22,373 nucleotides of DNA from a virus, in the IMG/VR virus record IMGVR_UViG_3300021197_001429, positions 1 to 22,373 of that record; one strand, given 5' to 3'. Both the position numbers and the translations under genes were made by a program. The notes under the pieces were generated by a model. It had not been told where the DNA came from, did not search any database, and saw only the letters and a program-made list of their open reading frames with translations. This document shows, piece after piece, positions 521 through 22,152 of the stretch (position 1 is its first letter; every line of letters begins with the position of its first letter).

Positions 521-2332
521 TTAGCTAGTAGCGCCTGCCTCACCAAGGAGTCCACGGACGATAACAAGACCGTACATATCGGGACGTACCATCTTCTTGG
601 CGTAACGTGTCATCACGCCCTTACGAGGCACGAAGTCCTCTGGTCCAAAGATGGTTGGTGTGGTTTGCAGTGGGACGTATGGGGCGTACACGTATCCGCT
701 TTCAAGGAAAGAGGATCCGCGGCGACCAATAAGGATCACGTTGCGGAGGAAGTAAGGATCAACAATAACGTCGAACTTCTTGCTCAGCGAACCAACATTC
801 ACTGCACCGACAGAACCGGTCTCATCGTCATGTGTGACGGAAGCACGGAAGCCAGCAGTAAACTCAAGGATGTTGGCAACTTCAGGTCCGCAGACGATAA
901 AGTTAGCACCACCACGCAGAGTCTTGCGGTGAATTTGTGCAGAAACATCATTGATTGTCTCAATGAGTGTCTCGTACCACTCGGAAACAGTACCGGTGAA
1001 GTCGGGAGCAGCAGAAGCAGCACCGATCTCAGTACCAGTTGCCTTGTTAAGGAACAGGCCAGGGGAGCGCGACCAGTAATAGGTAGCAGCCTTAGCACCG
1101 TTCACCAAGTCACCGAGAATCTCACGATCGATTTCAAGAGCAACTTGCTCAGAGAGAATCGAAGTAAGCTCAACCTCAGCATCAAGGTTGTGGTAGGCGT
1201 TAAGGTCTTGACCTAACTCCGGTGTCCACTTAGCCTTAAGCTTCTTGGTTTGAGCGGTGACAGCCACAGAGTCGACCTTGATGTCGATTTCTGGGATGGC
1301 AGCATTGCCTTCAAGGCCCCATGCAGTAGCACCCTCGATAGCACCGAGAGGACCAGCAGCTTGGAATCTATCAACGATAGCACCAGACAGGCAGAGACCA
1401 TCAGTGGTCAGAGCAGCCGAGTTGCCTTGTGCAACAGTAGTCAAGAAGTACAAGTTAACATATGTTACACCGTCTCCAGCAGACGTGCTCAAGTTCGTCA
1501 GGCGACGAAGTTGATTCGTGTCTGCTTCCACAGGCGCACCATCAAGAGTTGCAGCGTAGTCCAGTGAACGAATACTTGCAGAGAGTGTCGACAAGTTATC
1601 GAAGTCAAAGGTTCCAACAGTCGGAGCAGAAGCAGAAAGCTTCGCCTTGTTGATGGAAACGCGAACAACCCAAGTAGCAGTAGCTGTACTAGAGGAAAGT
1701 GCGAGAACATCCGGATCGAACGAAACGTGCTTCTTTTGAAGCTCGGACGAACCAGTGATACCCCAGACTTGAGAGAAACCATCACCAACGTGGAAAGACG
1801 CAGATGGAGATGCATAAGCATAACCACGAGCACCGACTGTACGTGCACCACCGAGGTCGCCCTCAAGGTTGCCGAGTAGGTCGACACCACCAGTAATCTG
1901 CATACCAACCTCGTCACCACCGTAAATCGATTTTCCGGCGGGGTTACCAAATCTTCCGTCGGCTTGTCCGTTCGCAACACCAGCAATATCCGGTGAGAAC
2001 GTAAAGTCGAGGAAGAAGATGAGTCCACTTGGCAGACTCATGGGCTGAACACTAACGAGATCGTTTGCGATCAGTCCTGCGAAAACACGACGAACGATGG
2101 GGAAGGCGACGGCAGCAAAGCCCTCAACATCACCAGCACTCATGCTGCTGCTCTCACGAAGAAGCTCTTTAGCTTGGTTTTCTAACAACCTTGCCATTGA
2201 GTTCTTTTTACGATCATTTCCAAGTCCTTCGAGAAGACCTGTGCGCTCCCACTTTGATAACAAAGCGTGACCTTCGGCGCGCATATCACGGTTAACAACA
2301 CCTTCGGTTAACCTTTCTACTATTCCAGCCAT
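521..2332 (-). CDS. 23: Major capsid protein, T4 gp23 type
   Basis: A 603-aa homologue of the T4 gp23 capsid protein, which forms the hexamers of the head. The N-terminus (residues 23-60) resembles the gp23 delta region: SKWE..LLEG, then ARLLENQAKELLRE. Next comes the family core VFAGLIANDLVSVQPMS.PSGLIF (about 83-107). Around 345-405 lies the motif IDIKVDSVAV...KKLKAKWTPELGQDL..YHNLDAEVELTSIL, the counterpart of T4's SRQLKA..S.ELAQDL..VHGMDAD.EL. The protein is about 80 aa longer than T4 gp23 (521 aa), with extra beta-rich, Ser/Thr-rich sequence in the middle. A probable gp21-type cleavage site is LLRE/S at residue 60. The start at 2332 has AGGAGGT 8 nt upstream. It follows the scaffold gene by 33 nt, the T4 order 22-23. 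Confidence 0.95.
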   Translation of the reverse strand: MAGIVERLTEGVVNRDMRAEGHALLSKWERTGLLEGLGNDRKKNSMARLLENQAKELLRESSSMSAGDVEGFAAVAFPIVRRVFAGLIANDLVSVQPMSLPSGLIFFLDFTFSPDIAGVANGQADGRFGNPAGKSIYGGDEVGMQITGGVDLLGNLEGDLGGARTVGARGYAYASPSASFHVGDGFSQVWGITGSSELQKKHVSFDPDVLALSSSTATATWVVRVSINKAKLSASAPTVGTFDFDNLSTLSASIRSLDYAATLDGAPVEADTNQLRRLTNLSTSAGDGVTYVNLYFLTTVAQGNSAALTTDGLCLSGAIVDRFQAAGPLGAIEGATAWGLEGNAAIPEIDIKVDSVAVTAQTKKLKAKWTPELGQDLNAYHNLDAEVELTSILSEQVALEIDREILGDLVNGAKAATYYWSRSPGLFLNKATGTEIGAASAAPDFTGTVSEWYETLIETINDVSAQIHRKTLRGGANFIVCGPEVANILEFTAGFRASVTHDDETGSVGAVNVGSLSKKFDVIVDPYFLRNVILIGRRGSSFLESGYVYAPYVPLQTTPTIFGPEDFVPRKGVMTRYAKKMVRPDMYGLVIVRGLLGEAGATS

Positions 2333-2365: not shown

Positions 2366-3544
2366 CTATTTGATACCAGCTAGTCTCTTCATCCTCTCTT
2401 GGAGAGGGTCAGAGGGTGTGTTCTCTTGACGAGAAGCACGCATAACAGAGGAACGACGTCCAATAGCTTCGCTCAGTGATTGTGGTCCACGTTTTGGCGT
2501 AGACTCCACTGTGCTCTGAAGCGTATTAAAGATAGTCTTTGCTTCTGTTACTGAACCAGCCTTTGAAATCGCTTCGACAATCTTTTCTTTTTGTCGCTCA
2601 TTCAGGGAGGTATTTCTAAGTACACGGTTCGTATAAAGCAAACGAGCGTTGGAAAGGTTTACAGTTTGTAAGTTTTCCCGTAGCTCATTAAATGCTTGCT
2701 TATATTGTGAGTTTTGCTCATTGGCTTGTTTATTTTCGAAAACTAAGTCTTCATGAGCCTTCTTCAAATCTTTTAAATCTTGTTCGAGGTCGGTAGAGCG
2801 GCGATGTGCTAGCTCTTTCTCCATCTCGTGTTTAACACTGTCAGACGATCTTCCGGCCCAGCCAGAAAGATCCGCGCCCATATCAACGGTAAGTTTTTCC
2901 ATGATGGCGTCTACAAGGGCGTCAGCATCAAGTTCTTCGTTTGTGGCGTTAATCTTATCTCTAACATCTTTAGGAAGAAAATCTGCTTTATTTTTCTTAT
3001 CTTTAGGAGGAGTGCGTGCGGCAACGTCGTCATCGGTGTCGTCTTCCTCTTCTTCATTAAGTTCCTCTTCCATTTGATCCATATCATCTTTGTCTTCTTC
3101 AGCAGTAACTTCACCGGGGCCTCCAGTGATAGCAATCTCCTCAAGTTCTTCTTCATCTTCAGCGAGGATGTTGGTGAGTTCTTCTTCGTTGATCTCAATT
3201 TCTTCCGACTCTTCTAAATCTGCCTCTAATGCAGCGACAGCTTCTTGGAGCGCATCGAGCGAAATGTTTACGGGAATATCTTCACCCTCAGTAGCAATAC
3301 CGGGGGGAACGTCGCCATCTTCCTCATCGAGGTTGTCGGTAGCCGCCAAAGGAATGTTGGGGACGACCTCTTCGGTGGAGCCAGCAGGCTCTTCCATTCC
3401 AAGTTCATCCTGCTCTAATAACTGATTCACAGCTTCGCGGACCTCGTCAGAATATTTCTCGATAATGGTGGTTTCCGCATTTTTGAGTGCGGAGTCGCGA
3501 AGTGCGTTAGCATCCACGATGGCTTCTTTAAGTAAACTAGACAT
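2366..3544 (-). CDS. 22: Prohead core scaffolding protein, T4 gp22 type
   Basis: A 392-aa acidic protein, the likely internal scaffold around which the capsid protein assembles and which the prohead protease degrades. After an N-terminal helix (MSSLLKEAIVDANAL) comes a very acidic Glu/Asp stretch (about residues 45-190), then a coiled coil (about 230-290). A segment reading LNERQKEKIVEAI.KAGSVTEAKTIF resembles the gp22 C-terminal segment LTESQREKVSALVE. Many I/L-x-E sites are present, as expected for a protease substrate. I place the start at the ATG at 3544, with AGGAG 8 nt upstream, rather than the in-frame TTG at 3574. The identification rests mainly on position directly before gp23, acidity and coiled coil. 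The C-terminus ends MKRLAGIK, a tag shared with the 479-aa protein at 10826-12265. Confidence 0.85.
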   Translation of the reverse strand: MSSLLKEAIVDANALRDSALKNAETTIIEKYSDEVREAVNQLLEQDELGMEEPAGSTEEVVPNIPLAATDNLDEEDGDVPPGIATEGEDIPVNISLDALQEAVAALEADLEESEEIEINEEELTNILAEDEEELEEIAITGGPGEVTAEEDKDDMDQMEEELNEEEEDDTDDDVAARTPPKDKKNKADFLPKDVRDKINATNEELDADALVDAIMEKLTVDMGADLSGWAGRSSDSVKHEMEKELAHRRSTDLEQDLKDLKKAHEDLVFENKQANEQNSQYKQAFNELRENLQTVNLSNARLLYTNRVLRNTSLNERQKEKIVEAISKAGSVTEAKTIFNTLQSTVESTPKRGPQSLSEAIGRRSSVMRASRQENTPSDPLQERMKRLAGIK

Positions 3545-3574
3545 GCATTGTGCTCCTAAAAGGCAATTGTACAA

Positions 3575-6112: not shown

Positions 6113-6134
6113 TAAAGTGTATCTCCCTTAGATC

Positions 6135-6144
6135 TATAAATAGA
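6135..6144 (-). promoter_or_regulatory. Candidate late promoter element (TCTATTTATA)
   Basis: The minus strand reads TCTATTTATA 23-32 nt upstream of the ATG at 6112, between the terminator at 6182-6215 and the fibre gene. The plus strand of the same site holds an exact TATAAATA, the T4 late promoter octamer, pointing away from the gene. The sense-strand reading fits the spacing seen at the three sibling sites. Confidence 0.45.
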
Positions 6145-6181
6145 TAGTTATTTTATTCCCTTCACTCTATAAGTAGTTTAT

Positions 6182-6215
6182 AAAAAAGAGGACGCCCCCC
6201 AAAAGGAGGGCGCCC
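6182..6215 (-). terminator. Strong intrinsic terminator after the 610-aa structural gene
   Basis: On the minus strand an 11-bp GC-rich stem (GGGCGCCCTCC with GGGGGGCGTCC, two G-U pairs) closes a TTTT loop and is followed by TCTTTTTT. It lies 40 nt beyond the stop codon of the gene at 6255-8087 and just before a promoter-like element. Confidence 0.92.
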
Positions 6216-6254
6216 AATATAGAAGAATAATCTTCCGGAGTGCAAAAGCAAATC

Positions 6255-8087
6255 CTAGAAGATAACCCAGCTGTTAGAACCAACGTACATCATCGAAACA
6301 GCACCGCCGTTTGACTCAACCTCGATTTGTTCAGCACCATCGATGCGATGAGCAGCAGAACCCTTGAGGATGATAAGCTCGTTTCCACCAAGGCTTCCTG
6401 GAGCTTTGACTTGTACAACATCACCTTCAGATGGGGCAGCTGGAAGTGTCCAGGTGCGATCTGCGGTAAAGTTGACGTTACCAGCGTTCATACCTTCTGT
6501 AAGGGTTGCGTTTGCATCCCCAACGATTGCAACTGCACCGGCTTGTGTCGAAAGAACACCGTTAGAGGCGGAAAGACCACCACCAGCCATCGCGCTAACA
6601 AGGTCAGCAATGCTTTCTTTCTTAGAGTTGTTACTGTCGTCAGCGTCGATGATAGCGATGCTATCAGCACCAACATTAACAACCGCAGCGGTCAACTCGT
6701 TAAGGTCGAGAGCTAAGACTGCTGAAGCAGCAGACAGACCAACACCAGCGAAAAGAGTAGCGATATCGTCGATAGTCTCTTTCTTTGGAATGTTACTTCC
6801 GTCAGCGTCGATAAGAATCATTGAGTCGCCAGAAGCAATCGAAGCAGCTTGTAAGCTGTTAGGATCGAACTGAAGTTTACCACCAGTAGATGCGAAGCCA
6901 GGCTCCGAAGCGACAAGTGCAGCAGCATAGTCAACGAATGTATCGCGACGTGTAACGGTTCCGTCTGCATCGATGAAAATCAACGAGTCAGCAGCAACGT
7001 TAACGGCAGCTTCGGTAAGCTCTGTCAAGGAGACTGAGAGGACACCAGCGGACGCGGCGAGACCGTCACCGGCAATTGCAGTAGCGTAGTCGGCGAAGCT
7101 TTCCTTCTTCATGAGACCATCGGAATCAAGGAAGTACAAGTCATCGTTAGCGACAGCAGCGGCAGCTGCAGCAACACCAGCAAGTTTAACGGTACCATGT
7201 GAGGTTACGTTGCCGACAACATCTAACGTGCTAGAAGCCGAAAGAGTTGTAGAAGCAACACCAGCAGCATAAGTGGCGAGACCGTGGTAGCGACTGATGC
7301 CAACAACGTCTAACGTACTAGAAGCAGAAAGAGTTGTGAATTGACCAGTAGACTGGGCCGCGGCACCAATAGCAGCACCATCGACAGAGCCACCATTAAT
7401 ATCAGCAGTTGTCACGGTACCAAGATCAGCACAAGTGCGACCAGCAGCTGTCCAGTTAGAACCGAACGAGAAGCTAGAACCGTCAGCAGAAATGCTATCT
7501 AAAGCGATGTCACCAACGTTTGTGATGTTTGCATCGCCCATTGATGCACCAGCGTGAGCAGTCAGCAGACCGAACACACCAGCTGTACCATTGATAACAG
7601 CGTTGTCAGCAATGCTTAAGTCGCCAGAAGCCGAAAGGCTTGTGAATCGACCAGAAGATTGCGCTGCAGCACCAATTGTGGCACCATCGACAGAACCGCC
7701 GTTGATATCAGCAGTGGTGACTGTGCCGAGATCAGCACAAGTGCGGCCGGCTGCAGTCCAGTTAGAACCGAACGAGAAGCTAGTACCATCGGCAGAGATG
7801 CTATCTAAAGCAATGTCGCCAACATTTGTAACGTTTGCATCACCCATTGAGGCGCCAAGCTTGAAGACAGCTGCTCCACTAACGTGTAATTCGTTTTTAA
7901 GTTCTGCGCGCCCTACGACGTTAAGAACAGAAGAACCTGACAACGAAACCGCTGTCAAGTTGCGGTTAGCATCCGAAAGTTGGACGCCCGCTAATTTAAG
8001 AACTCCAGCATCTGTAATATCTAAAGTACCCTCTTGCTCAAGAGTACCAGACATAACACTGGGTCCGAATTGAAATTTATAAGCCAT
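6255..8087 (-). CDS. Repetitive structural protein with two repeat families
   Basis: A 610-aa Ala/Ser/Asp-rich virion-like protein. Residues 79-151 and 181-253 are near-identical copies offset by 102 aa (GDAN.TNVGDIALDSISADG..FSFGSNWTAAGR). Residues about 305-520 hold four tandem units of 51-54 aa, each with DS....IDADG, then KKE....D.A, then G.GLSAS.GVL. The C-terminal 70 residues (TADRTWTLPA...IDGAEQIEVESNGG...YVGSNSWVIF) form a domain shared with the next two upstream structural genes. The gene starts at 8087 with GGAGGG about 9 nt upstream and ends before a strong terminator. It is likely an elongated, multi-domain fibre or surface protein. The exact location on the virion is unknown. Confidence 0.88.
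   Translation of the reverse strand: MAYKFQFGPSVMSGTLEQEGTLDITDAGVLKLAGVQLSDANRNLTAVSLSGSSVLNVVGRAELKNELHVSGAAVFKLGASMGDANVTNVGDIALDSISADGTSFSFGSNWTAAGRTCADLGTVTTADINGGSVDGATIGAAAQSSGRFTSLSASGDLSIADNAVINGTAGVFGLLTAHAGASMGDANITNVGDIALDSISADGSSFSFGSNWTAAGRTCADLGTVTTADINGGSVDGAAIGAAAQSTGQFTTLSASSTLDVVGISRYHGLATYAAGVASTTLSASSTLDVVGNVTSHGTVKLAGVAAAAAAVANDDLYFLDSDGLMKKESFADYATAIAGDGLAASAGVLSVSLTELTEAAVNVAADSLIFIDADGTVTRRDTFVDYAAALVASEPGFASTGGKLQFDPNSLQAASIASGDSMILIDADGSNIPKKETIDDIATLFAGVGLSAASAVLALDLNELTAAVVNVGADSIAIIDADDSNNSKKESIADLVSAMAGGGLSASNGVLSTQAGAVAIVGDANATLTEGMNAGNVNFTADRTWTLPAAPSEGDVVQVKAPGSLGGNELIILKGSAAHRIDGAEQIEVESNGGAVSMMYVGSNSWVIF
6528..7175 (-). repeat. Four tandem 51-54-aa coding repeats
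   Basis: Within the 610-aa protein, the pattern D(S/D)L.F(I/L)D(A/S)DG...KKE(S/T).(A/D)D.A....G.GLSAS.GVLS recurs at residues about 316, 367, 421 and 475. The third unit's repeat spacing is the same as the fourth's (54 aa). The second unit has diverged in its KKE box (RRDT) and in GLSAS (GFAST). Confidence 0.85.
7334..7550 (-). repeat. Direct repeat, copy 1 (306-bp offset)
   Basis: This 217-bp stretch aligns without gaps to 7640-7856. The two share long identical blocks, one exceeding 25 bp around 7457-7484 and 7763-7790, with scattered third-position differences. It encodes residues 181-253 of the 610-aa structural protein. Confidence 0.9.
7640..7856 (-). repeat. Direct repeat, copy 2 (306-bp offset)
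   Basis: Partner of 7334-7550. It encodes residues 79-151 of the 610-aa structural protein, which differ from the other copy mainly by conservative changes (for example ANVTN against ANITN and GRFTS against GQFTT). Confidence 0.9.
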
Positions 8088-8211: not shown

Positions 8212-8937
8212 TTAACAGATGAAGTATTTATTTGCGCCGTTACAATAAAGCTGCACGGACGCATAGGGCGACTCCAAAACTATCGAATTTTGACCGTCGA
8301 TTGTTTCGGCACCAGAGGCTAAAATTGTGATATTGTTGTTGATAGCATTGCCTCCCTCATCCTTTACCACGTACGTTTGACCATCTAGCATAAGTGACGC
8401 GCTTGGTAGGCGTACACTTATCGGACTATTGGTGGAATCTACACCAATGTAGTAACTTGTAGTCGATGCGGTGATAGTGGAGTTTGTAAACGTCCGTTGT
8501 AATTGGAACCCTCCCGCTAAAGCCAGGCGGTTGTTGTTAAACCTTAGCCCGAAAGAACCTGTTAAGTTTCCGCTATCATTTTTAAACTGAACCGAATAAT
8601 TGGGGCCCGATGGGCTCACATTACTCACGCCCGTTAGTTGACTGCCATCCCCATAGAAAAACGATGCAGAAACGGGTGCGCTAGCGCTCATCCCACCAAC
8701 AATTCCAAGCGAAGAACCATCAAACGTCAGGTTGGTTTCACAATTTAAAGAATTCGCATTGCCGCCTACATTGGTTACAATACCATTATCAGTCGCGTTT
8801 TGTACGCGAGGGACATTAATAATGCTCGCGCCATCGGACGTGCTTAAGTTGCCCGAGAGGATGTTGGTCCCAGCATCAATGCCTGGTCCGAAATATGCCG
8901 GCGCAATTACTGTGCCCGTCAGTGAATTATGAGCCAT
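8212..8937 (-). CDS. Fibre or decoration protein with shared C-terminal domain
   Basis: A 241-aa Ser/Asn/Gly-rich virion-like protein. The N-terminus MAHNSLTGTV resembles that of the 830-aa fibre. The middle segment TNLTFDGSSLGIVGGMSASAPVSASFFYGDGSQLTGV (about 65-105, described by its key boxes LTFDGS and FYGDGSQLT) also has a counterpart there. The C-terminal 70 residues (SVRLPSASLMLDGQTYVVKDEGG...ETIDGQNSIVLES...LYCNGANKYFIC) match the ends of the flanking structural proteins. It looks like a short relative of the large fibre. AGGAGGA lies 9 nt before the ATG at 8937. Confidence 0.85.
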   Translation of the reverse strand: MAHNSLTGTVIAPAYFGPGIDAGTNILSGNLSTSDGASIINVPRVQNATDNGIVTNVGGNANSLNCETNLTFDGSSLGIVGGMSASAPVSASFFYGDGSQLTGVSNVSPSGPNYSVQFKNDSGNLTGSFGLRFNNNRLALAGGFQLQRTFTNSTITASTTSYYIGVDSTNSPISVRLPSASLMLDGQTYVVKDEGGNAINNNITILASGAETIDGQNSIVLESPYASVQLYCNGANKYFIC

Positions 8938-8960
8938 TTACCAGTTCCTCCTAAAACTAA

Positions 8961-9713
8961 TTAGAAGACAAACCAGTTGCTTCCATCCGAATACAAGTTA
9001 ATTGCCGGCATATTGCCAGTTAGCTGGTAATATGAAGAGCCGTCGATGGTATCTCCACCACCGGATCCAGATATTGTTAATTTATCACCTATTGGTCGAC
9101 CAGAAATCTGATCTTTAACCACAAGCACAGTACCCGCACCAACAACACTTGGTGCTAATAAACGTAAACCTGTCTTACCAGTACCAGCACCGGCGGTAAA
9201 TCCGTAAATGAGCGCTTGGTTATCAGTTTTGCTAGCTCCAATCATCGTCGCAAAAGATGCAGTCGTATCCGTAGTGATGGCTTGATATCTGCCTTGAAGT
9301 GAGCGAACATACACTCTTCTATTCTTTGCAGATGCGCTTAAAATTGGTTCTGTGCCTGTGTTCCAAGCTGCTCCGACTGCACCCGATACAACGTTCAAAC
9401 TACCAGTTCGAAGATGGATGTCGGGAGCGTCATTACCAAAAATGGTTGAGCCGGACATAATTTCTGTATCAATGATCTTGTAAGAGCTAGCTGTGATAGC
9501 CCCCTTCACAATAAGGACACCCGACATAACAAGCGTTCTTGCTTGATAATAGGGGCTTCCGCCCGCGGGATAAGACGCAGTATAATACATAAGCGATTGC
9601 GAACCTGTCTGATTCGATCCGCTTGTATGAAACTGTATAGAACCAGTAGGTCCCGTGGCTGATGCGCCACCGGTGCTAGCAGTACAGTTTATATATGCCC
9701 ATCCGGTAGCCAT
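8961..9713 (-). CDS. Fibre or decoration protein with shared C-terminal domain
   Basis: A 250-aa protein rich in Gly, Ser, Thr and Ala, with no signal peptide. The N-terminal half is beta-rich and unrecognised. The C-terminal 75 residues (LRLLAPSVVGAGTVLVVKDQ...DTIDGSSYYQL...INLYSDGSNWFVF) belong to the same domain as the ends of the proteins at 6255-8087 and 8212-8937. The start ATG shares one base with the stop of the upstream gene (TAATG), implying translational coupling. Likely an exposed virion protein; the family is not named. Confidence 0.83.
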   Translation of the reverse strand: MATGWAYINCTASTGGASATGPTGSIQFHTSGSNQTGSQSLMYYTASYPAGGSPYYQARTLVMSGVLIVKGAITASSYKIIDTEIMSGSTIFGNDAPDIHLRTGSLNVVSGAVGAAWNTGTEPILSASAKNRRVYVRSLQGRYQAITTDTTASFATMIGASKTDNQALIYGFTAGAGTGKTGLRLLAPSVVGAGTVLVVKDQISGRPIGDKLTISGSGGGDTIDGSSYYQLTGNMPAINLYSDGSNWFVF

Positions 9714-10129
9714 TATCCAACTCCAGCAGAACCTGACCAGTTCGGACCGAGGCGTCCTGCTGTCTTTTTACGGTCAATACATGTGAGACCAGCAACAACG
9801 TCAACGGCGGAGGCGCCGGCGTCACCATAAATCCAAATTCCGGAGACCTTCATATGATAAATGTCGGACTTTCCGAAACCAGTTACGCTTCCCGAATTGG
9901 GCACCACAAAGTGATTAGACCCAGAAACTCCCACCGCCGAAAAACCAACCTTGACAGGGTTAGCTCCGCGGTTGATCACTTGAAACCATGTGCTAACCAT
10001 TGGAAATGCTATCTCTGCTGCCGAGCCGGCAGTATGCGTGCTAGCGTAGGGGCGGCCGCTTACTTGATATGAGCCAACGTTGTTGAGTCCAACTTCCGGT
10101 ACTCTGATTGGTGCTAATCCTTTTGCCAT
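9713..10129 (-). CDS. Small virion-like protein
   Basis: A 138-aa protein, beta-rich, ending in a Gly/Ser-rich tail (GPNWSGSAGVG). Notable boxes are YQVSGRPYAS, FPMVSTWFQVINRGANPVKVGFS and VDVVAGLTCID. The composition (Gly, Ser, Val, Ala) and the presence of a GANPVKVGFSAVGV strand pattern resemble small capsid or fibre decoration proteins of T4-like phages from the sea, but I do not recognise a named family. The start at 10129 has GAGGAT about 8 nt upstream and a promoter-like element at 10162-10171. It is coupled to the next gene by a TAATG overlap. Confidence 0.83.
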   Translation of the reverse strand: MAKGLAPIRVPEVGLNNVGSYQVSGRPYASTHTAGSAAEIAFPMVSTWFQVINRGANPVKVGFSAVGVSGSNHFVVPNSGSVTGFGKSDIYHMKVSGIWIYGDAGASAVDVVAGLTCIDRKKTAGRLGPNWSGSAGVG

Positions 10130-10161: not shown

Positions 10162-10171
10162 TATAAATAGT
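10162..10171 (-). promoter_or_regulatory. Candidate late promoter element (ACTATTTATA)
   Basis: The minus strand reads ACTATTTATA 33-42 nt upstream of the ATG at 10129, filling the gap after the bS21-like gene. It is the best copy of the recurring element. The plus strand holds an exact TATAAATA at 10162-10169 facing the opposite way. Confidence 0.45.
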
Positions 10172-10416
10172 CACTTATTTGTTCTATTGCGCCTTTCTTT
10201 GGCACGTTCTCGTTTTCTTTCTTCACGGGCGCGCTGTCTTCGGGCGCGCTCACTCTTCTCTCGCTTGGCGACGGAAGGTTTCGTATAGTGCTTTCGGTCG
10301 CGCATTTCCTCAATTAGACGCTCGCGCTTTGTTTTTTTGATAAATTTTCTTATCATTTTTTCGTGGTTGCCGCGGCACTCGCGAGCAGTCACTTTAAAAT
10401 TGTATTTTTTAGCCAT
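10171..10416 (-). CDS. rpsU-like: bS21-like ribosomal protein
   Basis: An 81-aa, extremely basic protein. The core MIRKFIKKTKRERLIEEMRDRKHYTKPS (residues 21-48, boxes RKF..K..RE.LIEE.R.R..Y.KPS), followed by an Arg/Lys-rich tail (KREKSERARRQRAREERKR), fits the bS21 pattern of FKR...K.G.L.E.R.R..YEKP then KR..K...ARR. In bacteria bS21 joins the 30S subunit near the anti-Shine-Dalgarno end and aids initiation. Phage-encoded bS21 is known from pelagiphages and uncultured viruses. The ATG at 10416 (AGGAA 7 nt upstream) is preferred to the TTG just before it. It sits inside the virion operon, 8 nt after the preceding gene. The alternative is a generic basic nucleic-acid-binding protein, but the KPS box and spacing favour bS21. 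Confidence 0.75.
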   Translation of the reverse strand: MAKKYNFKVTARECRGNHEKMIRKFIKKTKRERLIEEMRDRKHYTKPSVAKREKSERARRQRAREERKRERAKERRNRTNK

Positions 10417-10424
10417 CAATATTC

Positions 10425-10829
10425 CTACTTCATTGCCTTCCAGACAGCGCTAGCGCCACCCACAAGAGAGCTAATGTCGACGCCAGCATCTCTAGAACTA
10501 CCCATGTCTGGGGTTCCAGGGGCTGGCGCGCCGGCATCCATTGGAGTGGTGCCTTCGAACAGATTCACTCCGTTATAACTATCGTTACCGATCGCATCCA
10601 TCATTTTTTTGCGCTGCTCAGACATACGCTTGTTGGTTTCTTTGGTTTTGTTTTCTCTAAATGGTTTGTCTTCAAATGACCTTGGCCGGGCCTCAGTCAC
10701 CATATTACCCTGCATTCCTTTTGCCACCTCAGAGACCACACTTGATAAAAGCCCTTCCTCAATAAGGACCTCGTGAATGCATTCCTTGACAAGTGGCTTG
10801 ATTAATTGTTTTAAGTCTGTTTTTTTCAT
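10425..10829 (-). CDS. Hypothetical protein with amphipathic N-terminal leader
   Basis: A 134-aa protein of unknown function. It begins with a helix MKKTDLKQLIKPLVKECIHEVLIEEG, of the same style as the MKI.K..LK.II.EE leaders at 19812-20129 and 21468-22151. The middle is charged (about 45-75, Lys/Glu/Arg) and the end is Gly/Ala/Pro-rich. The start overlaps the stop of the 479-aa gene by four bases (ATGA), so the two are probably translationally coupled. Possible head core or internal protein by context; this is not shown by any recognised domain. Confidence 0.8.
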   Translation of the reverse strand: MKKTDLKQLIKPLVKECIHEVLIEEGLLSSVVSEVAKGMQGNMVTEARPRSFEDKPFRENKTKETNKRMSEQRKKMMDAIGNDSYNGVNLFEGTTPMDAGAPAPGTPDMGSSRDAGVDISSLVGGASAVWKAMK

Positions 10830-12265
10830 TTTATTCCTGCGAGCGCTTTCCAGCGGCCGATTGTTTTAGATTCATTAAGTTTGTTTTCTGCCGCTCTCCT
10901 CTGGGTGGGTTCGGCGGGATTTTGTGTAGCTGGTGGTGGGCTCTTTGTTGACAAGTCTACTACTTCTGCGTCTTGATCGCTCACCATTTTGGTGCGTACA
11001 TTACGCATAAGAACATTTAGTAGAGCGCGCGCCTGCTTTTTCATAAATATTTTAGACATCCTTTCGATCTTCTCTGCTTTCTTTGGATCTTTTCTACTTA
11101 AATTCTTAAATTGCAGCAGGATCCTCTCTTTGTTCTTTTTCAGATATCCATCATCTGCTATCTTCTCTACTGGGTTGTTCGAAGTTTTCTTTTCACTTAA
11201 AACATACTCTGGTAAATATGGACCAATAAAGTTTACAAAAGCGTCTAAGTCTGATTTGAAATTAACATTTGCTCCTTTATTTCTATTAACGCTGTTCCAG
11301 CTGCCTTTTAATTTATCGAGTTGTTGAAAATCATCTGCCAAATAAAACACTTTTCGGTCTTGAGGTTTGGCCGCGGTCGGCTCGGAGGTGCTTGGAACCT
11401 CTTCGGCGCCGGTGGGATCGTAAGTATCGGAACCTGCAAATCCAGATTTACTCCAGGGACCGTCGGCGTCGGCGTCTGGAAAAAAGCGGCTCCTTTCCCA
11501 AGTGCCGGCATCTGGGACTTCCTTAGTATCTGGGATTTCCTCAGCATCTGGGACTTCCTCGACATCTACCGGGGTGCGCTCGCGAGGCGCGGTTTTCTTT
11601 GGAGTGCGATCTTCCGGAGTGTCCCAATCATGTGGCACCTCCCATGGTTTAGGCTTTTCCTTTTCTGGTGTCGGTGTAGGCTCTGGTGCCTTACCAAACC
11701 AGTCGGGTATCTGATCGCCGTCTTTACCAAAAAAGCCACCGCGTGCTAAAATCTTATGTAAGTGCGCTTTGGTCTTTGCGTTGGTCAATGCACCATTAAA
11801 AAGTTTAGTCAGATTGGGATACTTAGCTAAGTCACCCAGCTTAGGCATACGGCCGGGGGGTAAAATAACCGATGCCTTGTGAATAGCTTGTTCTTCAATC
11901 GTATAGTTGTTCCCTTGGGGATCGGTGAGGAGCGCCTCCAATTCATCATAAAGTATCTTCGGAGCGATGCCAAGATTTAAAGCTTTATTGATATCGCCAA
12001 GCGCTTTTGACAACGCAACAACATCGTCTGCATTGTAAGTTACTTGTTCTTCTTGTTCACCTGGGGTGCCTGCTCTTAATCTCTTAAGGTAGCCGCCTTC
12101 ATCATGTGACAAGCCATACTTACCACCAGATTTTGCCTTGGCTCCACTAAAGAATTCATCTAATGGCACCTCTGTCTGTGACTTAGGTGCAACACTTTCA
12201 TTGAGAAAACTCTTCCAAGCATCGCTTTGGCGTTTGGCGCCCTTAAAGCTACTCCAATCACTCAC
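10826..12265 (-). CDS. Pro/Glu-rich protein with shared terminal tags
   Basis: A 479-aa protein of unknown family following the prohead protease gene. N-terminal boxes are MSDWSSFKG and DAWKSFLNES (about 15-24). The middle (about 195-305) is low-complexity and rich in Pro, Glu, Asp and Thr, including three copies of a 6-aa unit (EVPDAE, EIPDTK, EVPDAG). The last 180 residues are Lys/Arg-rich and likely helical, ending LNESKTIGRWKALAGIK. The LAGIK end is shared with the scaffold protein. The LNE/S boxes resemble gp21-type cleavage sites. The gene overlaps the protease gene by 8 nt and the next gene by 4 nt. A head-core or scaffold-associated role is inferred from position and tags. Confidence 0.82.
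   Translation of the reverse strand: MSDWSSFKGAKRQSDAWKSFLNESVAPKSQTEVPLDEFFSGAKAKSGGKYGLSHDEGGYLKRLRAGTPGEQEEQVTYNADDVVALSKALGDINKALNLGIAPKILYDELEALLTDPQGNNYTIEEQAIHKASVILPPGRMPKLGDLAKYPNLTKLFNGALTNAKTKAHLHKILARGGFFGKDGDQIPDWFGKAPEPTPTPEKEKPKPWEVPHDWDTPEDRTPKKTAPRERTPVDVEEVPDAEEIPDTKEVPDAGTWERSRFFPDADADGPWSKSGFAGSDTYDPTGAEEVPSTSEPTAAKPQDRKVFYLADDFQQLDKLKGSWNSVNRNKGANVNFKSDLDAFVNFIGPYLPEYVLSEKKTSNNPVEKIADDGYLKKNKERILLQFKNLSRKDPKKAEKIERMSKIFMKKQARALLNVLMRNVRTKMVSDQDAEVVDLSTKSPPPATQNPAEPTQRRAAENKLNESKTIGRWKALAGIK
11510..11563 (-). repeat. Three 18-bp tandem repeats
   Basis: On the plus strand units beginning ATCTGGGA(C/T)TTCCT recur at 11510, 11528 and 11546, each 18 bp. They encode three copies of (D/E)(V/I)P-D-type hexapeptides in the disordered Pro/Glu-rich region of the 479-aa protein. 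Such in-frame units can expand or contract by slippage. Confidence 0.88.
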
Positions 12266-12863
12266 CGTCTAGTACCTCATTTAACAATCTATTGATTCTA
12301 TCGGCCTTTGTGAAGACTTTATTAGTAAAATCCTTTGCTTCTTGCATCATAAATGCGCCAGGAGTTGACGGCTCGGAAACAAAATCAAAACAAATCAACT
12401 GAAAGTCATCTTCGACGACAGTGTTTCCTTGAGATTCTGTAACTGATCCCATACCTCGTGAGGAAATACCAATACTAACTCCTGACTGCACAAGAGTTTT
12501 TAGCACTTGACCAGACGGCGTATCTAATACTTTGGCTTTACCCATAACATTCTTACCGTCCCACCAAACCTTTGTCATCATGTGGGAAGCATTCTTGAGA
12601 TTGATCACGGAATCTTCTGGGTGATCTAGCTCGCCTAGGGCGCGCCGATCAGTGACAAGCTTTTCATAATTTTTCATCTCACGCATTAAAACGTTATAAG
12701 GATATACTCGGCCATTTCCGTTAACCGTATCTGCTTTTTGAATAATGCCAGTTAAAAACATGCCGCCGGCGGCGACAAAGGCTTTTTCTTCTTCTGTTAG
12801 CAGATCTTGGCAAACTCCGCCATCGCAGAGTTCATAATATTCTCTTAATAGCTTCTGACCCAT
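12258..12863 (-). CDS. 21: Prohead maturation protease, T4 gp21 type
   Basis: A 201-aa serine protease that matures the prohead by cutting scaffold, core proteins and the capsid N-terminus after I/L-x-E. Family boxes in order: GGMFLTGIIQKADTVNGNGRVYP (34-55, like T4's GIFLQAEVVNRNKRLYP), the histidine box ALGELDHP (His81), the substrate-strand region MMTKVWWDGKNVMGKAKVL, and the serine box GISSRGMGS (Ser134/Ser135). The length is close to T4 gp21 (212 aa). The N-terminus LLREYYELCDGG differs and may be a propeptide. The start at 12863 has AAAGGAT about 10 nt upstream. It overlaps the 479-aa gene by 8 nt. Confidence 0.95.
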   Translation of the reverse strand: MGQKLLREYYELCDGGVCQDLLTEEEKAFVAAGGMFLTGIIQKADTVNGNGRVYPYNVLMREMKNYEKLVTDRRALGELDHPEDSVINLKNASHMMTKVWWDGKNVMGKAKVLDTPSGQVLKTLVQSGVSIGISSRGMGSVTESQGNTVVEDDFQLICFDFVSEPSTPGAFMMQEAKDFTNKVFTKADRINRLLNEVLDGE

Positions 12864-13240: not shown

Positions 13241-13840
13241 CTATAAACCTTGTCCGGCGCCGGCGAGCGCAGTTGTTAAGCAGGTGAGAGATAACTCATC
13301 TACGCATGCTGAAGCGCCGCCGGCGGCTAAAACGGCCGTGAGCGCCAGCCTTAGTGGGGTGCCGCCTTTGTCAATGGTATTTTTAATAACTGGGATATTC
13401 AGTAAGTTTCCATTAGCTAAAGTGTTAACAAAGTTAAATTCTGCCGCATCTTCCATTTGTTTAATTTCCGCTTTGGCCTCATCATAAAGTTGTCTTTGTT
13501 CTGGCGTAAAGTCTTTTAATTTAACGTCAGTGAGGCCGGCCAATTCTTTAATTTTCCTAATTCTTTGCTGGCGTGCTTTTCGCTGCATGCGTCCTTTGCG
13601 GGCTGCCGAACCTTCGCCAAGCTGATCTCCAATTTCTTGGGCTGTCTCTTGCGTTTCGGTGTCAGCGTCTTCAACAGCATCAGCTAAAGCCATAATTGTT
13701 TTTAAAAGCTCCTCAACAGCCCCTATTTGTTGATCAGTAGGCGGGGTTACCTCGCCTGCAGCGGTCGGCTCTTCAGTGGCATCACCACCAAGTTCGGCTT
13801 CATCAAGAAACTTATTCCAATTTTCAATTAAACGTTTCAT
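13241..13840 (-). CDS. Leader-bearing putative head core or internal protein
   Basis: A 199-aa protein of unknown family. It begins MKRLIENWNKFLDEAELGGD. The first 11 residues are identical to the start of the upstream gene product, and FLDE/AELGGD closely resembles the T4 gp23 cleavage site FLTE/AEIGGD. The rest holds an acidic helical part (about 40-75), a basic cluster (RKGRMQRKARQQRIRKIKELAGL, about 81-103) and a hydrophobic Ala/Gly-rich C-terminal third with two Cys. I chose the ATG at 13840 over an upstream start at 13909 because the leader begins there and it follows the previous stop by 4 nt. AGGAA lies 12 nt upstream, rather far. A processed head protein is the leading idea. Confidence 0.8.
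   Translation of the reverse strand: MKRLIENWNKFLDEAELGGDATEEPTAAGEVTPPTDQQIGAVEELLKTIMALADAVEDADTETQETAQEIGDQLGEGSAARKGRMQRKARQQRIRKIKELAGLTDVKLKDFTPEQRQLYDEAKAEIKQMEDAAEFNFVNTLANGNLLNIPVIKNTIDKGGTPLRLALTAVLAAGGASACVDELSLTCLTTALAGAGQGL
13808..13840 (-). repeat. 33-bp perfect direct repeat, copy 1 (leader coding)
   Basis: These 33 bp are identical to 14235-14267 and encode the MKRLIENWNKF leader at the start of the 199-aa protein. Identity includes all synonymous positions and ends exactly at the ATG on one side. Confidence 0.97.
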
Positions 13841-13844
13841 CGTA

Positions 13845-14267
13845 TTACATAGTTCCTGTTGCCTGGATATACCTGGCTCCACTCCAGTTAGAAGGTGCAC
13901 CTGATGCATTTAAATATTGAATATTGTTAATAGAACCACCATCAGTTGCTCTGTCAAAGGAAGTTTTTACTTGAGAATTTGCAGCATTTCTTGCCGTACC
14001 TTCATTGCTCATATTTTTAAGCATGCTTATGTCAACAGTATATGATACAGAGCCATCTGAATTTTTAACAAGCGTATTAACATTAACCTCGGCGTCAACT
14101 TGTTGTGTTGTTTGAGCCCCAGAAGAGGTGTCTGTATTGTTTTGCTGTGTGTTTGGTTTTACTCCGCCACCCATTGCCAATGCTGTCGCTAATGCCGCTG
14201 TTCCAACGCCTTCTTCTATATCGTCTTCATTTATAAACTTATTCCAATTTTCAATTAAACGTTTCAT
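13845..14267 (-). CDS. Leader-bearing putative head core or internal protein
   Basis: A 140-aa protein beginning MKRLIENWNKFINEDDIEEG, with the same 11-residue start as the next gene. FINE/D fits the gp21 I/L-x-E cleavage rule. After an Ala/Gly-rich segment (GTAALATALAMGGG) it is Asn, Thr, Ser and Gln-rich, with beta-prone strands (AEVNVNTLVKNSDGSVSYTVDISML). No named family is recognised. The ATG at 14267 follows the previous stop by only 1 nt, with no obvious strong Shine-Dalgarno, so re-initiation is likely. The four-nt gap to the next ATG makes this a tandem pair with the 199-aa gene. Confidence 0.8.
   Translation of the reverse strand: MKRLIENWNKFINEDDIEEGVGTAALATALAMGGGVKPNTQQNNTDTSSGAQTTQQVDAEVNVNTLVKNSDGSVSYTVDISMLKNMSNEGTARNAANSQVKTSFDRATDGGSINNIQYLNASGAPSNWSGARYIQATGTM
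14235..14267 (-). repeat. 33-bp perfect direct repeat, copy 2 (leader coding)
   Basis: Partner of 13808-13840, 427 bp away, encoding the same leader in the 140-aa protein. The flanking sequence differs on both sides immediately outside the 33 bp. Confidence 0.97.
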
Positions 14268-14808: not shown

Positions 14809-15625
14809 CGGTGTTGAACTCCTCTACTAATTTTTGTGTCTTTAAAACAGTGAGCAAGACATGCTCCGAGATCTCTTCAGTTGCGAAAGATTGTAATCTC
14901 TCCATAATTTCTTGGGCCTTGTGTGACATGTCTGCATCATCCATAAAGATTTCAGTTTTCTGTGCACTGATCACTGCCTCTTTGAGGCGCGCTATTTCAT
15001 CATTAAGGTACATCTTCAATGATAGCGAGTTGTCTGCAAAGGAACTAATGTATCTACTCAGTAGTTCTTGCTGTTCACCCAACAAAGAGTTGGAATATTT
15101 TTTATTGAACTTCTCCACAAAGGTCTTGAGTAACACACTGTCGACTTCTTGTTCTGCTTGCGAACTCTCTCTATCAAGAACCATATTTTCAATTATTTCA
15201 TTTTCTAAAATCACTTTACTCTTAGGGTCGACCTTGAGATTAAAAATTTGATCAATTGTGGCTAAAGTTTTATAATTGGGAACAAAATTATTAAACACAT
15301 CGTTATCGATCTCTTTGTTGACATCGTGTATCATTTCAGTTTGTGCTTTAAACAACCCAGTTGGGTCTATCATCATCTTCTGTATTTTTGCTTCTTTGAC
15401 AATCTTTTCCGATGTTGATTTGTCTATGCTTTGATTTTCATATAAAGCTCGGTAACATTCTAGGTCAGCTTTAAGAACTCCGCCATTTGCAAAATGTTTC
15501 TTGATCACGTCAACCACTTTCTGTTTACGTTCTATGTCACCTTTCATAATAGAGACAGTGGCCTCTTTGATTAGGGCTTCATAAACAAACGCAGTGTTGC
15601 GCTTTTTATTATGCTTTGTCTTCAT
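14792..15625 (-). CDS. Hypothetical protein following the portal
   Basis: A 277-aa Lys/Glu-rich protein, mostly helical, with a basic start (MKTKHNKKRNTAFVYEALIKEA). A box near 100-120 reads KAQTEMIHDVNKEIDNDVFNNFVPNYKTL, and the C-terminal half is charged with likely coiled-coil character. No known domain was recognised. Its start overlaps the portal's end by 17 nt and its end overlaps the next gene by 17 nt. GGAG lies about 10 nt before the ATG at 15625. The immediate portal linkage suggests a prohead assembly or neck role, inferred only. Confidence 0.83.
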   Translation of the reverse strand: MKTKHNKKRNTAFVYEALIKEATVSIMKGDIERKQKVVDVIKKHFANGGVLKADLECYRALYENQSIDKSTSEKIVKEAKIQKMMIDPTGLFKAQTEMIHDVNKEIDNDVFNNFVPNYKTLATIDQIFNLKVDPKSKVILENEIIENMVLDRESSQAEQEVDSVLLKTFVEKFNKKYSNSLLGEQQELLSRYISSFADNSLSLKMYLNDEIARLKEAVISAQKTEIFMDDADMSHKAQEIMERLQSFATEEISEHVLLTVLKTQKLVEEFNTDGDNS

Positions 15626-17660
15626 TTTTTTGCTCCATCAATTTATTATTATTCTCCAGACCCTCAAGTAAGTCTCGAATTGATTCGTTGATAACAAACA
15701 ACTTATCCTCTTCACTCTGCTCTCTCAAATTATAAATAGAGCGTTCTTGCTCATAAATACCTTTTGCTATACTTGGGATTTTGTTAATCTCTGCGCCCGG
15801 GTAAGTTGGTCGAGTTGAACCTCCTGCTTTTTCTTTATTATATTGTGCAGCATAATTTCTTGTTCTAGGGCCAGCATCCTTACGACGATCATTCTTTACT
15901 GGGTCGTAGCTACTTTTTTCGTATTTGCGCGTCTTCTTATTCTTACTTGTTCGTGGTGCATTTCTAGAGCCTGGTGGTACAGCCAATAGAGGAGATTCAT
16001 CTCCTCCGCCAGGTTCTTCTCCAGCCGGCGGGGCTCCTGCATTACCGGCCGGCATTTCTTCTGGGCCACCAAGGTCTCCCAAGCCACCTTCATCGGCGCC
16101 GAGATCTCCCAAACCACCTTCATCGCCACCCAAGTCACCAAGACCTCCGCCTAGACCACCACCTAAACCACCGGCATCGGCGCCTCCGGCGCCCTCAGCA
16201 ACAGCCTGTAAAGATGCGTCATGAGAACGATCGTAATACATTTCGCGCTGGTTACGCTGAAATTCTTCGTGGTTCATGCCAAAGATATTTTCTGAAACCC
16301 AGCGACGCGAAAAGAACCCTTCGGTTGCTGATCCAGCTATGTCAAACTTCTGCTTCCAGTGTTCAATTTCTTGAAGCTCTGCAATTTTAGATGGGTTATT
16401 GAGAGCCAATTTGAAACTCAACAAATCGTCTCCGCGAAAACCAAGAGTATAAAGGTGAATAATTGCTACCTTTTCTAATTCAGCAATCACCACACGCTGC
16501 AAACGTTGTACAGTGCGCGAGAAGCGAATATCTTTCTGAGCTAATGTGGTTTTATCTTCTGCTGCGCCCTCCCCCATAGCAAGATATGCTTGGGGAATTT
16601 TTAGCGCGGAAAAAAGTTTATCTCGAAGATATTTAATATCATCAATCTGTGTGATATTCTGGGCGCCGGCGAGTGTGGTAATTTCAGTCGCAGATCCGGC
16701 GCGGACCGGGATAAAATAGTCTTCTTCAATAGACATTGGATTATACCGCAAGTCAACGCGGCCACTACTTGGATCAACTACCGAGTGTCTTTTAAGTTGT
16801 GTCACAATCTTTTGCATGTATTGTTCGACATCTTGTGGCGGCACAGCGCCAACATCAATCTTAAACACGCGGCGTTCTGAAGAACGAACAACACGGTAGG
16901 CCATCATTGCGTCTTCCATAAGTGTAAGCTGGCGCCAAATGCGTCGGGCTGGCTCAAGAATAGAAGTGCCGTATGGCGCATACTTATCATTACCAAGAAT
17001 ACGGAAATGTGCAACTTGCCAGTTCTCAAAAGTCATTCCTGCTGAATTCCACTGGTATTGGACATAGTTTGGGTTGGTTGAATCTTCGCCCTCCAATCTT
17101 TCAATTTCTTGCCCAGGTAACGCGACTACAGACTTAACACCATATTTTTCATCAATATCCAGATATAAAAAGAAATCTCCATACTTACACATTGTCCGAG
17201 ACCAACCAAAGAGATTGTACTGTAGGCTCAGGATATTATCAAAAAGGACCGCTAAAACTGCAGTGATCTCCTCATTGGCACACTTGATATTTAGCATCGG
17301 TCTCAAGTCGGAGTAAGTGGTCATCTCATCAGCGTAGATATCTAAGGAGGATGCAATTTCAGGCATGTACTCCATTTGGTCAAAATCTACATAGCGTTCA
17401 GAGCGACGCTGGTTAGCTATAGCGTTGGTTGCTATGGTATCAAGAGGGTTATGTAACGCCTTCTTAAATTGTTGACCAGAAGCTGATTTAAAGCGAGAAG
17501 CATATTTATCAAGATGCTGGCGCCTAATCCTGCGACCAGACTGGGACCGATAATTTACTATTGGACCCGAGAAAAGTCTCGTGAGCGCTTTGAATAGTTT
17601 GGAATCTTCGTTTGCTGGGTTATTAGCGTTACTTCTATTTCTTCGGTTAGGGGGTGCCAT
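15609..17660 (-). CDS. 20: Portal protein, T4 gp20 type
   Basis: A 683-aa homologue of the T4 portal, the dodecamer at the head vertex through which DNA is packaged. Diagnostic regions are the MPEIASSLDIYADEM box (about 98-112), KYGDFFLYLDIDE.YGV, the EPARRIWRQL..MEDAMMAYRVVRSSERRVFKID segment, EEDYFIPVRAGSATEITTLAGAQN and DDIKYLRDKLFSALKIPQAYL. T4 gp20 is 524 aa; this one has about 150 extra residues at the C-terminus: a Gly/Leu/Asp repeat linker (about 487-545), a Lys/Arg-rich stretch, and a final acidic helix (INESIRDLLEGLE). The start at 17660 has AAGGAT 6 nt upstream. It follows the terminase by 8 nt. Confidence 0.95.
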   Translation of the reverse strand: MAPPNRRNRSNANNPANEDSKLFKALTRLFSGPIVNYRSQSGRRIRRQHLDKYASRFKSASGQQFKKALHNPLDTIATNAIANQRRSERYVDFDQMEYMPEIASSLDIYADEMTTYSDLRPMLNIKCANEEITAVLAVLFDNILSLQYNLFGWSRTMCKYGDFFLYLDIDEKYGVKSVVALPGQEIERLEGEDSTNPNYVQYQWNSAGMTFENWQVAHFRILGNDKYAPYGTSILEPARRIWRQLTLMEDAMMAYRVVRSSERRVFKIDVGAVPPQDVEQYMQKIVTQLKRHSVVDPSSGRVDLRYNPMSIEEDYFIPVRAGSATEITTLAGAQNITQIDDIKYLRDKLFSALKIPQAYLAMGEGAAEDKTTLAQKDIRFSRTVQRLQRVVIAELEKVAIIHLYTLGFRGDDLLSFKLALNNPSKIAELQEIEHWKQKFDIAGSATEGFFSRRWVSENIFGMNHEEFQRNQREMYYDRSHDASLQAVAEGAGGADAGGLGGGLGGGLGDLGGDEGGLGDLGADEGGLGDLGGPEEMPAGNAGAPPAGEEPGGGDESPLLAVPPGSRNAPRTSKNKKTRKYEKSSYDPVKNDRRKDAGPRTRNYAAQYNKEKAGGSTRPTYPGAEINKIPSIAKGIYEQERSIYNLREQSEEDKLFVINESIRDLLEGLENNNKLMEQKNEDKA
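15731..15739 (-). promoter_or_regulatory. Possible internal promoter element (CTATTTATA)
   Basis: Inside the end of the portal gene the minus strand reads CTATTTATA, the same core as at 10162-10171, about 106 nt upstream of the ATG at 15625. The distance is larger than at the other sites and the site is coding, so it may be coincidence. Confidence 0.2.
16071..16130 (-). repeat. Two 30-bp tandem repeats in the portal linker
   Basis: Units 16071-16100 and 16101-16130 are 30-bp imperfect copies coding (G/A)DEGGLGDLG; a degenerate third follows to about 16160. They form the Gly-rich linker between the portal core and its C-terminal extension. Confidence 0.85.
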
Positions 17661-17668
17661 TTAAATCC

Positions 17669-19252
17669 TTATTTGATGATCCAACTAAATTGGTCATACA
17701 TTTCTTGTGCTTCATTCATTTTATCAAAGATATTATCTTTTTTGTAGCCTTCTTGGCCTTTTATTTGAGTGTTCATAGAAGTTTTCGATGTTACAATCGA
17801 TGACAAAAAAGCTTTTGAGTAGTTTAGATCTCGTGCGCTTGACTGCAATGCTGTGTCCCTCACCCAACATGCGATTGCTAATGCCATGATTAAATCATCA
17901 TGATACCCTTTCATCGCTTGAGGCTTTCCATTCTTCCAAATGAATGTTTTCATCTCGTTAATTGTACGAGAAGAATATATGGTAATTAGTTTGTTTCTAA
18001 TAAACTCCTCTAATTTTGCAACTATCAAAGGCCGTGTCTTCATCGAGGTAGTAAATCCGGCAACCGCAGAATTCTTAACTTCTGCTTGATGTTGTTCTAT
18101 GTACTCGTGTGTAGACTTAATAGAGTAGTACAAATTTGGGTAAGCATGTTCAACCAGTTTATCGAGGACTGTGTAACCGATGTTATTGTTTTCTACCACA
18201 AGCATCGCATTTCCAAATTCTCGCCCTACTTGATTCAAGAAGTTTGCATACATATCTGGCGTTGGCTTACCTTGGTACTCGCCTACTATTTCGAGAGTCT
18301 CTAATTTAATCATGTGTAAAGTGGAGAAGTCGGCGCCGTCGCCGCGTGAAACATCGGCGACAGCAAGATAGTTACAACTAGGGTCAAACTCTTCCCAGAT
18401 CCAAAAATTCCTGTCGAAGCCTGTTCTGTGCTTCGGTTCTTTAACGGTATCAAGAAGCCACTTCATACAATCAGGATCAATTACAGTTTCTCCCGAGGTG
18501 TTGAAGTTGCATTCCAACTCCTGTGCGATCTGTCGTTTTGACATGTTCTTGGTTTCTTTTTTGTACCAAGCTTCGTCGCGATCAGGGTGCACGTCCCAGG
18601 ACAATGTAGTTAAATTAAAGTTATTTGTATTGCTATCAGCATCGGTGCATGTCTTGTGAAACCAATTTCCAACCCCATTCGGAGTGGACAACGCTATACA
18701 ACGACCACCAGTAGACAGCGTTGGATACAAACCAGTCCATAGTTCTTCGAGACCTTCGATGTGAGCAGCCTCATCAAGAACTAAAAGAGACAGTGCTTCA
18801 GAGCGACCAGCATCTCCAGATGTTGATGCGGCTTTGATTGACGATCCATTAGAAAGTTCAAAAGAGGTTCGGTTATCAACAGTAATGGTAGCAATACTTA
18901 GCCAGTCTGGGACATTTCTCATTATGCCCTTGACTTTCTTTACAAGGTTACCTGCTGTGGCAAACTTAGTAGCCATTACTAAAATTGCTTTGTCGCGGTG
19001 GAACAACATAAGCCAGACAATGTATCCAGCTGTAATAGTTGATATTCCTAGCTGTCTGGCTTTTAGAATAACGTTAAAACGATAATCATTAAAATCACGT
19101 AAAAGGTCGTCTTGGAAATCATAAGTATCAAAAAGAATTAACCCATGCATAGGATGGGATATTCTAGCATAGGTTTTTAAAAAATAGGCAGGATCTTTAC
19201 CACATTTTAATATTTCTTTAACTTGTTGTTTTTTGTCTAACTGAAAAGCCAT
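17669..19252 (-). CDS. 17: Terminase large subunit, T4 gp17 type
   Basis: A 527-aa packaging motor that uses ATP to pump DNA into the prohead and cuts the concatemer. The ATPase domain has a Walker A variant LKARQLGIST (63-72), Walker B LLVLDEAAHI (156-165, catalytic Glu161) and the coupling motif LSTPNG (188-193). The nuclease domain has Asp300 (VADVSRGDGADFS), Glu354 (LVVENNNIGY) and HDD at 451-453 (GYHDDLIMALAIA), the RNase H-like acidic set. It is shorter than T4 gp17 (610 aa), lacking part of the N-terminal extension. The start shares one base with the preceding stop (TAATG). Confidence 0.95.
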   Translation of the reverse strand: MAFQLDKKQQVKEILKCGKDPAYFLKTYARISHPMHGLILFDTYDFQDDLLRDFNDYRFNVILKARQLGISTITAGYIVWLMLFHRDKAILVMATKFATAGNLVKKVKGIMRNVPDWLSIATITVDNRTSFELSNGSSIKAASTSGDAGRSEALSLLVLDEAAHIEGLEELWTGLYPTLSTGGRCIALSTPNGVGNWFHKTCTDADSNTNNFNLTTLSWDVHPDRDEAWYKKETKNMSKRQIAQELECNFNTSGETVIDPDCMKWLLDTVKEPKHRTGFDRNFWIWEEFDPSCNYLAVADVSRGDGADFSTLHMIKLETLEIVGEYQGKPTPDMYANFLNQVGREFGNAMLVVENNNIGYTVLDKLVEHAYPNLYYSIKSTHEYIEQHQAEVKNSAVAGFTTSMKTRPLIVAKLEEFIRNKLITIYSSRTINEMKTFIWKNGKPQAMKGYHDDLIMALAIACWVRDTALQSSARDLNYSKAFLSSIVTSKTSMNTQIKGQEGYKKDNIFDKMNEAQEMYDQFSWIIK

Positions 19253-22151: not shown

Positions 22152-22152
22152 T

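Follow-up and report, generated by a model that had tools for sequence, protein, structure and literature searches.

What is a gene for a ribosomal protein doing among the genes that build a phage head? The question is raised by a 22,373-nucleotide stretch of viral DNA (hereafter the window; 22.4 kb, GC 45%) from an uncultured, marine-type virus of bacteria, in which every gene lies on the minus strand. A preliminary description, made from the letters alone, had read one 81-residue product as a bS21-like protein encoded inside the virion operon and therefore made late with virion proteins, and had suggested that it could bias host ribosomes toward phage mRNAs late in infection, or be packaged and delivered. 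The commonest ribosomal protein in viruses is phage bS21.

The rpsU-like gene (10171..10416, minus strand) starts with an ATG at 10414-10416, runs for 81 codons down to 10174 and ends with a stop codon at 10171-10173; a mechanically called reading frame has 82 residues owing to a TTG one codon upstream, and the ATG is the likely start. Its assignment to bS21 was confirmed by the HMM comparison that the preliminary description had called for, as the protein scored above the curated cut-offs of both the equivalog family TIGR00030 (E 7e-9; 35.3 bits, cut-off 28.95) and PF01165 (E 9e-8; 32.2 bits, cut-off 27). It also matched the PHROG bS21 family (E 0.003), and the top matches in a sequence search of the PDB were all bS21. 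A scan of IMG/VR seeded with the protein gave 35 loci with relatives, and all 19 of the relatives that were aligned matched TIGR00030. Purifying selection is evident from dN/dS values of 0.02-0.11 in ten pairs of relatives, values that are rough as dS is often near saturation. An AlphaFold model (pLDDT 84) has helices at residues 18-31, 34-42 and 47-80. Foldseek and VIA comparisons of this model with the PDB provided no independent confirmation of the bS21 fold: Foldseek returned bS21 chains or ribosome entries, all weakly and with E above 1, and VIA alignments to bS21 chains reached a Z of up to 4.6 at an rmsd of 8.3 A, a weak match. Away from rRNA, bS21 does not adopt a compact fold, and two or three helices on their own would be anticipated to match only weakly.

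The proposed virion-operon setting was also upheld, as on the same strand as bS21 are genes for a terminase large subunit of the T4 gp17 type (TerL; 17669..19252; PF03237 E 2e-9, phrog_2 E 1e-53), a gp20-type portal protein (15609..17660; PF07230 E 1e-80), a gp21-type prohead protease (12258..12863; PF03420 E 1e-33, phrog_207 E 2e-56) and a gp23-type major capsid protein (521..2332; PF07068 E 2e-71). Adjoining the capsid gene, in the gp22 position, is a gene for a probable prohead core or scaffold protein (2366..3574, minus strand; likely start near 3544, at the ATG of MSSLLKE), which is acidic, has several conserved [LI]xE/[AGS] motifs and has no Pfam match. The immediate neighbors of bS21 agree in part with the head-core and decoration genes first suggested: the upstream gene, g10425, encodes a probable prohead-core protein, but downstream is g9713 (138 aa; 9713..10129, minus strand), whose position is kept in many relatives and which had no match in Pfam or PHROG, followed by fibre-like proteins, and no decoration protein was identified. 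Four fibre-like proteins come in succession at 8212-9713 and 3620-8087. The one at 6255-8087 has internal repeats (GASMGDANxTNVGDIALDSISADG) and shares with those at 8212-8937 and 8961-9713 a similar C-terminal block containing an IDG plus a final aromatic/hydrophobic run. No tRNAs were found in the window. A candidate T4-like late promoter, TATAAATA, was rejected, as none of its three matches is on the gene-bearing strand and that number was reached in 6 of 100 shuffles. By TerL, the nearest cultured phages are Flavobacterium phage immuto (48%) and Microcystis phage Mel-JY01 (44%); no cultured phage was found with a close bS21.

Short terminal motifs are common to the products at 10826-12265, 2366-3574, 13241-14267, 19812-20129 and 21468-22166, the N-terminal ones being MKxxKxxLKxIIKEE or MKRLIENWNKF and the C-terminal one RxLAGIK. 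Many operon products also have an [LI]xE/[AGS] site close to the N-terminus; over all window products, eight such sites fall within the first 45 residues versus 2.3 expected. Such terminal motifs and N-terminal cleavage sites may serve to target internal head proteins to the capsid.

A consistent feature of the locus is the pairing of bS21 with g10425 (134 aa; 10425..10829, minus strand). In the window the two genes are separated by 8 nt, and at their junction (10417..10430, minus strand; ATG AAG TAG GAATATTG ATG) the AGGA ribosome-binding site of bS21 overlaps the g10425 stop codon, the TAG being part of TAGGAA. In 34 of the 35 bS21-seeded loci g10425 is upstream of bS21 on the same strand, and where contigs are long enough the protease is upstream of both, with variable genes in between. 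Since that scan had been seeded with the bS21 sequence itself, the retrieval was repeated with an alignment of g10425. In the best 80 IMG/VR loci so obtained, bS21 is directly downstream of g10425 and on the same strand in 78, and the other two contigs end within 86 nt. The stop-to-start gap in 77 loci ranges from -4 to +18 nt, with an ATGA overlap in 21, and in total the operon and the gene pairing are conserved in about 110 loci. The near-overlapping ends, with the stop codon of one gene inside the ribosome-binding site of the next, predict that bS21 is translationally coupled to g10425. Head operons that lack bS21 (L040, L043 and that of immuto) also lack g10425, with one marginal match (E 0.005) in a further such operon, L041. 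The converse occurs as well, in that bS21 is present without g10425 in L042, L052 and Mel-JY01; in the last of these a gene upstream of rpsU was considered as a g10425 counterpart and discarded, as it has no detectable relation to g10425.

The nature of g10425 is suggested by its conserved gp21-type cleavage motifs. Among 34 syntenic relatives, IEE/G at residues 23-26 is present in 33 and LFE/G at residues 90-93 in 32, and g10425 homologs average 2.0 [LI]xE/[AGS] motifs each, compared with 0.36 in shuffled sequences. As positive controls, the same scan recovered conserved motifs in the capsid protein (7/7 and 6/7) and the core protein (9/9, 8/10 and 8/10), and it found none in three of the four fibre-like proteins, the protease, g12909, g9713 or bS21. 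It had one clear false positive, LDEA in TerL (15/15), which we read as the Walker B motif. A family search with g10425 produced no match above chance, and its structural model is mostly helical and of low confidence (pLDDT 63). The internal proteins of T4 are targeted to the head by short N-terminal sequences that are cleaved at L/I-X-E (PMC9026906). On the strength of its two conserved motifs, we class g10425 as a probable prohead-core or internal head protein.

The phage bS21 sequences were compared in a set of 63 unique proteins that was unbiased in having been fetched via g10425 and not via bS21 itself. V11, I24, F27 and K32 (alignment numbering) are invariant, and the core positions MIR[RK]F, K32 and K-P-S nearly so. 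Cys16 is present in 60 of the 63 and Asn19 in 54, forming an ECxxN segment that, with one extra residue, precedes the MIR[RK]F helix. This looser signature is what remains of the unusual N-terminus in the preliminary description. A hyperconserved RGNHEKMIRKF, seen in the first 35 loci, was dropped because NHEKMIRK was the search seed and the exact string occurred in only 4 of the 78 loci fetched with g10425. The claim of a more Arg-rich tail held moderately, the C-terminal tail being 36% Arg versus 22-28% in four proteobacterial bS21s, but its net charge of +11 is the same as theirs (+10 to +12). The gp21-type cleavage motif is absent from 61 of the 63 sequences, and bS21 has no recognizable targeting sequence. 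A position of particular relevance is the equivalent of Tyr54 of Flavobacterium johnsoniae bS21, a residue that helps to hide the anti-Shine-Dalgarno sequence in Bacteroidetes (PMC9976891); it is Arg in the window, and among 62 relatives it is Arg in 60 and Lys in two.

Shine-Dalgarno (SD) usage was scored as SD-anti-SD pairing of -7 kcal/mol or better and compared with that at mock positions. SD sites precede 42% of the window genes versus 8% of mock positions, and 26-34% versus 2-6% in four relatives of 108-155 kb, with SD strength being uniform along the phage genomes. The control, Flavobacterium phage immuto, has none in 28 genes and no bS21. Genome-wide SD use points to a host that most likely uses SDs itself and is not a Flavobacteria-type bacterium, against which the Arg or Lys at the Tyr54 position also argues. 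A search of bacterial genomes with the capsid protein found only distant phage contigs in unrelated MAGs (best 59% identity), scoring of cellular bS21s with a model of the phage protein did not separate phyla, and Pfam annotation of a 154-kb relative gave no host marker, the genes it revealed including sugar, chaperonin and PhoH genes. The contents of that relative (G033; L075-L082) include a C-terminal piece of Cpn60, transketolase, GDP-mannose and dTDP-sugar enzymes, PhoH and six tRNAs.

How, then, might a bS21 made with head proteins act? The explanation that we consider probable is that phage bS21, co-translated late in infection with the prohead-core protein g10425, replaces host bS21 on the 30S subunit and shifts initiation to phage late mRNAs. 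Its conserved core would bind the platform of the host subunit and so displace host bS21, which is exchangeable, as virion protein synthesis surges; there it would alter initiation beside the 3' end of 16S rRNA in a manner that favors or sustains translation of SD-bearing late mRNAs. The sequences show family membership, selection, a conserved head-operon position, the tight pairing with g10425 and SD use by the phage; that bS21 is made late and coupled to g10425 in translation, that it enters host ribosomes and that it affects mRNA choice is what we infer. The late expression anticipated in the preliminary description is supported by the anatomy of the locus (the shared strand, the 8-nt gap to the upstream gene and the conserved coupling), and bS21 of lake phages is transcribed late, together with structural genes (PMC9723584). 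A pelagiphage bS21 has been demonstrated to enter E. coli ribosomes in vivo, and GFP synthesis by such ribosomes was ~5% of normal (PMC6375957). A late translational bias, with metatranscriptomic support, has been proposed for other phages by Chen et al. 2022 (PMC9723584), and a late bias of host ribosomes by the window protein is plausible. The uniform SD strength gives no hint of a special dependence of late genes on a ribosome altered by bS21. We regard it as quite improbable that a bS21-derived basic protein has instead lost its ribosomal role and been repurposed as a head-core or DNA-binding protein: the strongly basic tail, the head-operon position and the tight pairing with g10425 would suit such a protein, but that tail is no more charged than in ordinary bacterial bS21, and the ribosome-contacting core is under strong constraint and scores above the equivalog cut-off.

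The pairing also bears on packaging, which Chen et al. 2022 likewise proposed (PMC9723584). Here the prohead-core protein would carry or accompany bS21 into the head, from which bS21 would be ejected, acting on ribosomes as soon as the next infection begins. The constant, nearly overlapping placement of g10425 directly upstream, the resemblance of its cleavage motifs to those of the capsid and core proteins, and the T4 precedent of internal proteins with cleaved N-terminal sequences are indirect hints in its favor. Another is L074 (1441-2184, minus strand), a phage contig that had been placed in the bin of a Woesebacteria MAG and in which one reading frame of 248 aa spans g10425 and bS21; a Lys/Asn-rich linker joins the two parts, and the junction has no ATG. 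We accord that frame little weight, as it may be a real fusion or a one-base assembly error in a run of A, and the strict cleavage motifs have been lost from its g10425 part. With nearly all of the bS21s devoid of a cleavage motif or targeting sequence, and with bS21 occurring without g10425 in Mel-JY01 and L052, packaging appears unlikely, and the specific scheme in which bS21 is loaded via the protease-cut g10425, injected and re-programs host ribosomes already in the first minutes of an infection is decidedly so. A further possibility is that a Bacteroidota host bS21 hides the anti-SD and that the phage protein, without the aromatic residue, exposes it, switching ribosomes to SD-bearing phage mRNAs. 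The uniformly basic residue at the Tyr54 position and the SDs of the phage genes fit this, one of the cultured phages related by TerL and capsid has Flavobacterium as its host, and strong-SD mRNA is translated more in F. johnsoniae when bS21 carries Y54A or is lost (PMC9976891). Yet SDs are equally common genome-wide, even though the early genes have to be translated at a time when no phage bS21 has been made; proteobacterial bS21 normally has a basic residue at the Tyr54 position; the phage of Flavobacterium itself, immuto, has neither SDs nor bS21; and no host evidence points toward Bacteroidota. The uniform SD usage disfavors unmasking in a Bacteroidota host, which we judge very improbable.

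Replacement of host bS21 late in infection, our preferred reading, is not in itself a new idea, as both the late bias and packaging have been published for other phages by Chen et al. 2022 (PMC9723584), who reported that prohead-protease genes are located close to bS21 in 310 of the 900 published phages. Their lake-water Bacteroidetes phages resemble the window in being myoviruses with bS21 near the TerL, portal, prohead protease and major capsid genes, but their bS21 and head genes lie on opposite strands, whereas in the window and its relatives the two share one strand. They also have an aromatic residue at the Tyr54 position (61/61), unlike the basic one of the window clade, and a GC content of 31-34%, compared with the window's 45% GC, SD-using genes and tight pairing of bS21 with an upstream head gene. 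A same-strand bS21 in a head operon already exists in the deposited genome of the cultured T4-like phage Mel-JY01 (PP395634; RpsU at 22183-22410), where rpsU comes two genes downstream of that for the prohead protease and ahead of the capsid gene; its product lacks the C..N signature of the window clade. Pelagibacter phage HTVC008M, the source of the bS21 that was demonstrated in E. coli ribosomes (Mizuno et al. 2019, PMC6375957), is likewise a T4-like myovirus, but its gene is between those for CobS and Hsp20/DNA clamp, outside the head operon. Proteobacterial cellular bS21 has in common with the phage clade the family core, a basic C-terminal helix (in the phage protein a modelled one) and Arg or Lys rather than an aromatic residue at the Tyr54 position, and lacks the clade's ECxxN N-terminus; only the core aligns well, for example at 40% over the matched part with a deltaproteobacterial bS21. 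As far as the literature searched shows, what is new is the obligate pairing with g10425, the protease-substrate signature of g10425 and the basic Tyr54-position residue in an SD-using clade. In these SD-using phages the start codon of bS21 is tied to the stop codon of a probable prohead-core gene, an arrangement that makes late ribosome re-programming and virion packaging directly comparable in one clade and indicates that the Bacteroidetes-specific residue for masking the anti-SD is not needed for bS21 to reside in a head operon. A Bacteroidota-like Tyr at the Tyr54 position was seen in the bS21 of L070, contig 14 of the Prochlorococcus single-cell record AG-409-L21, and the same cyanobacterial single-cell assembly also contains a T4-like phage contig (L051).
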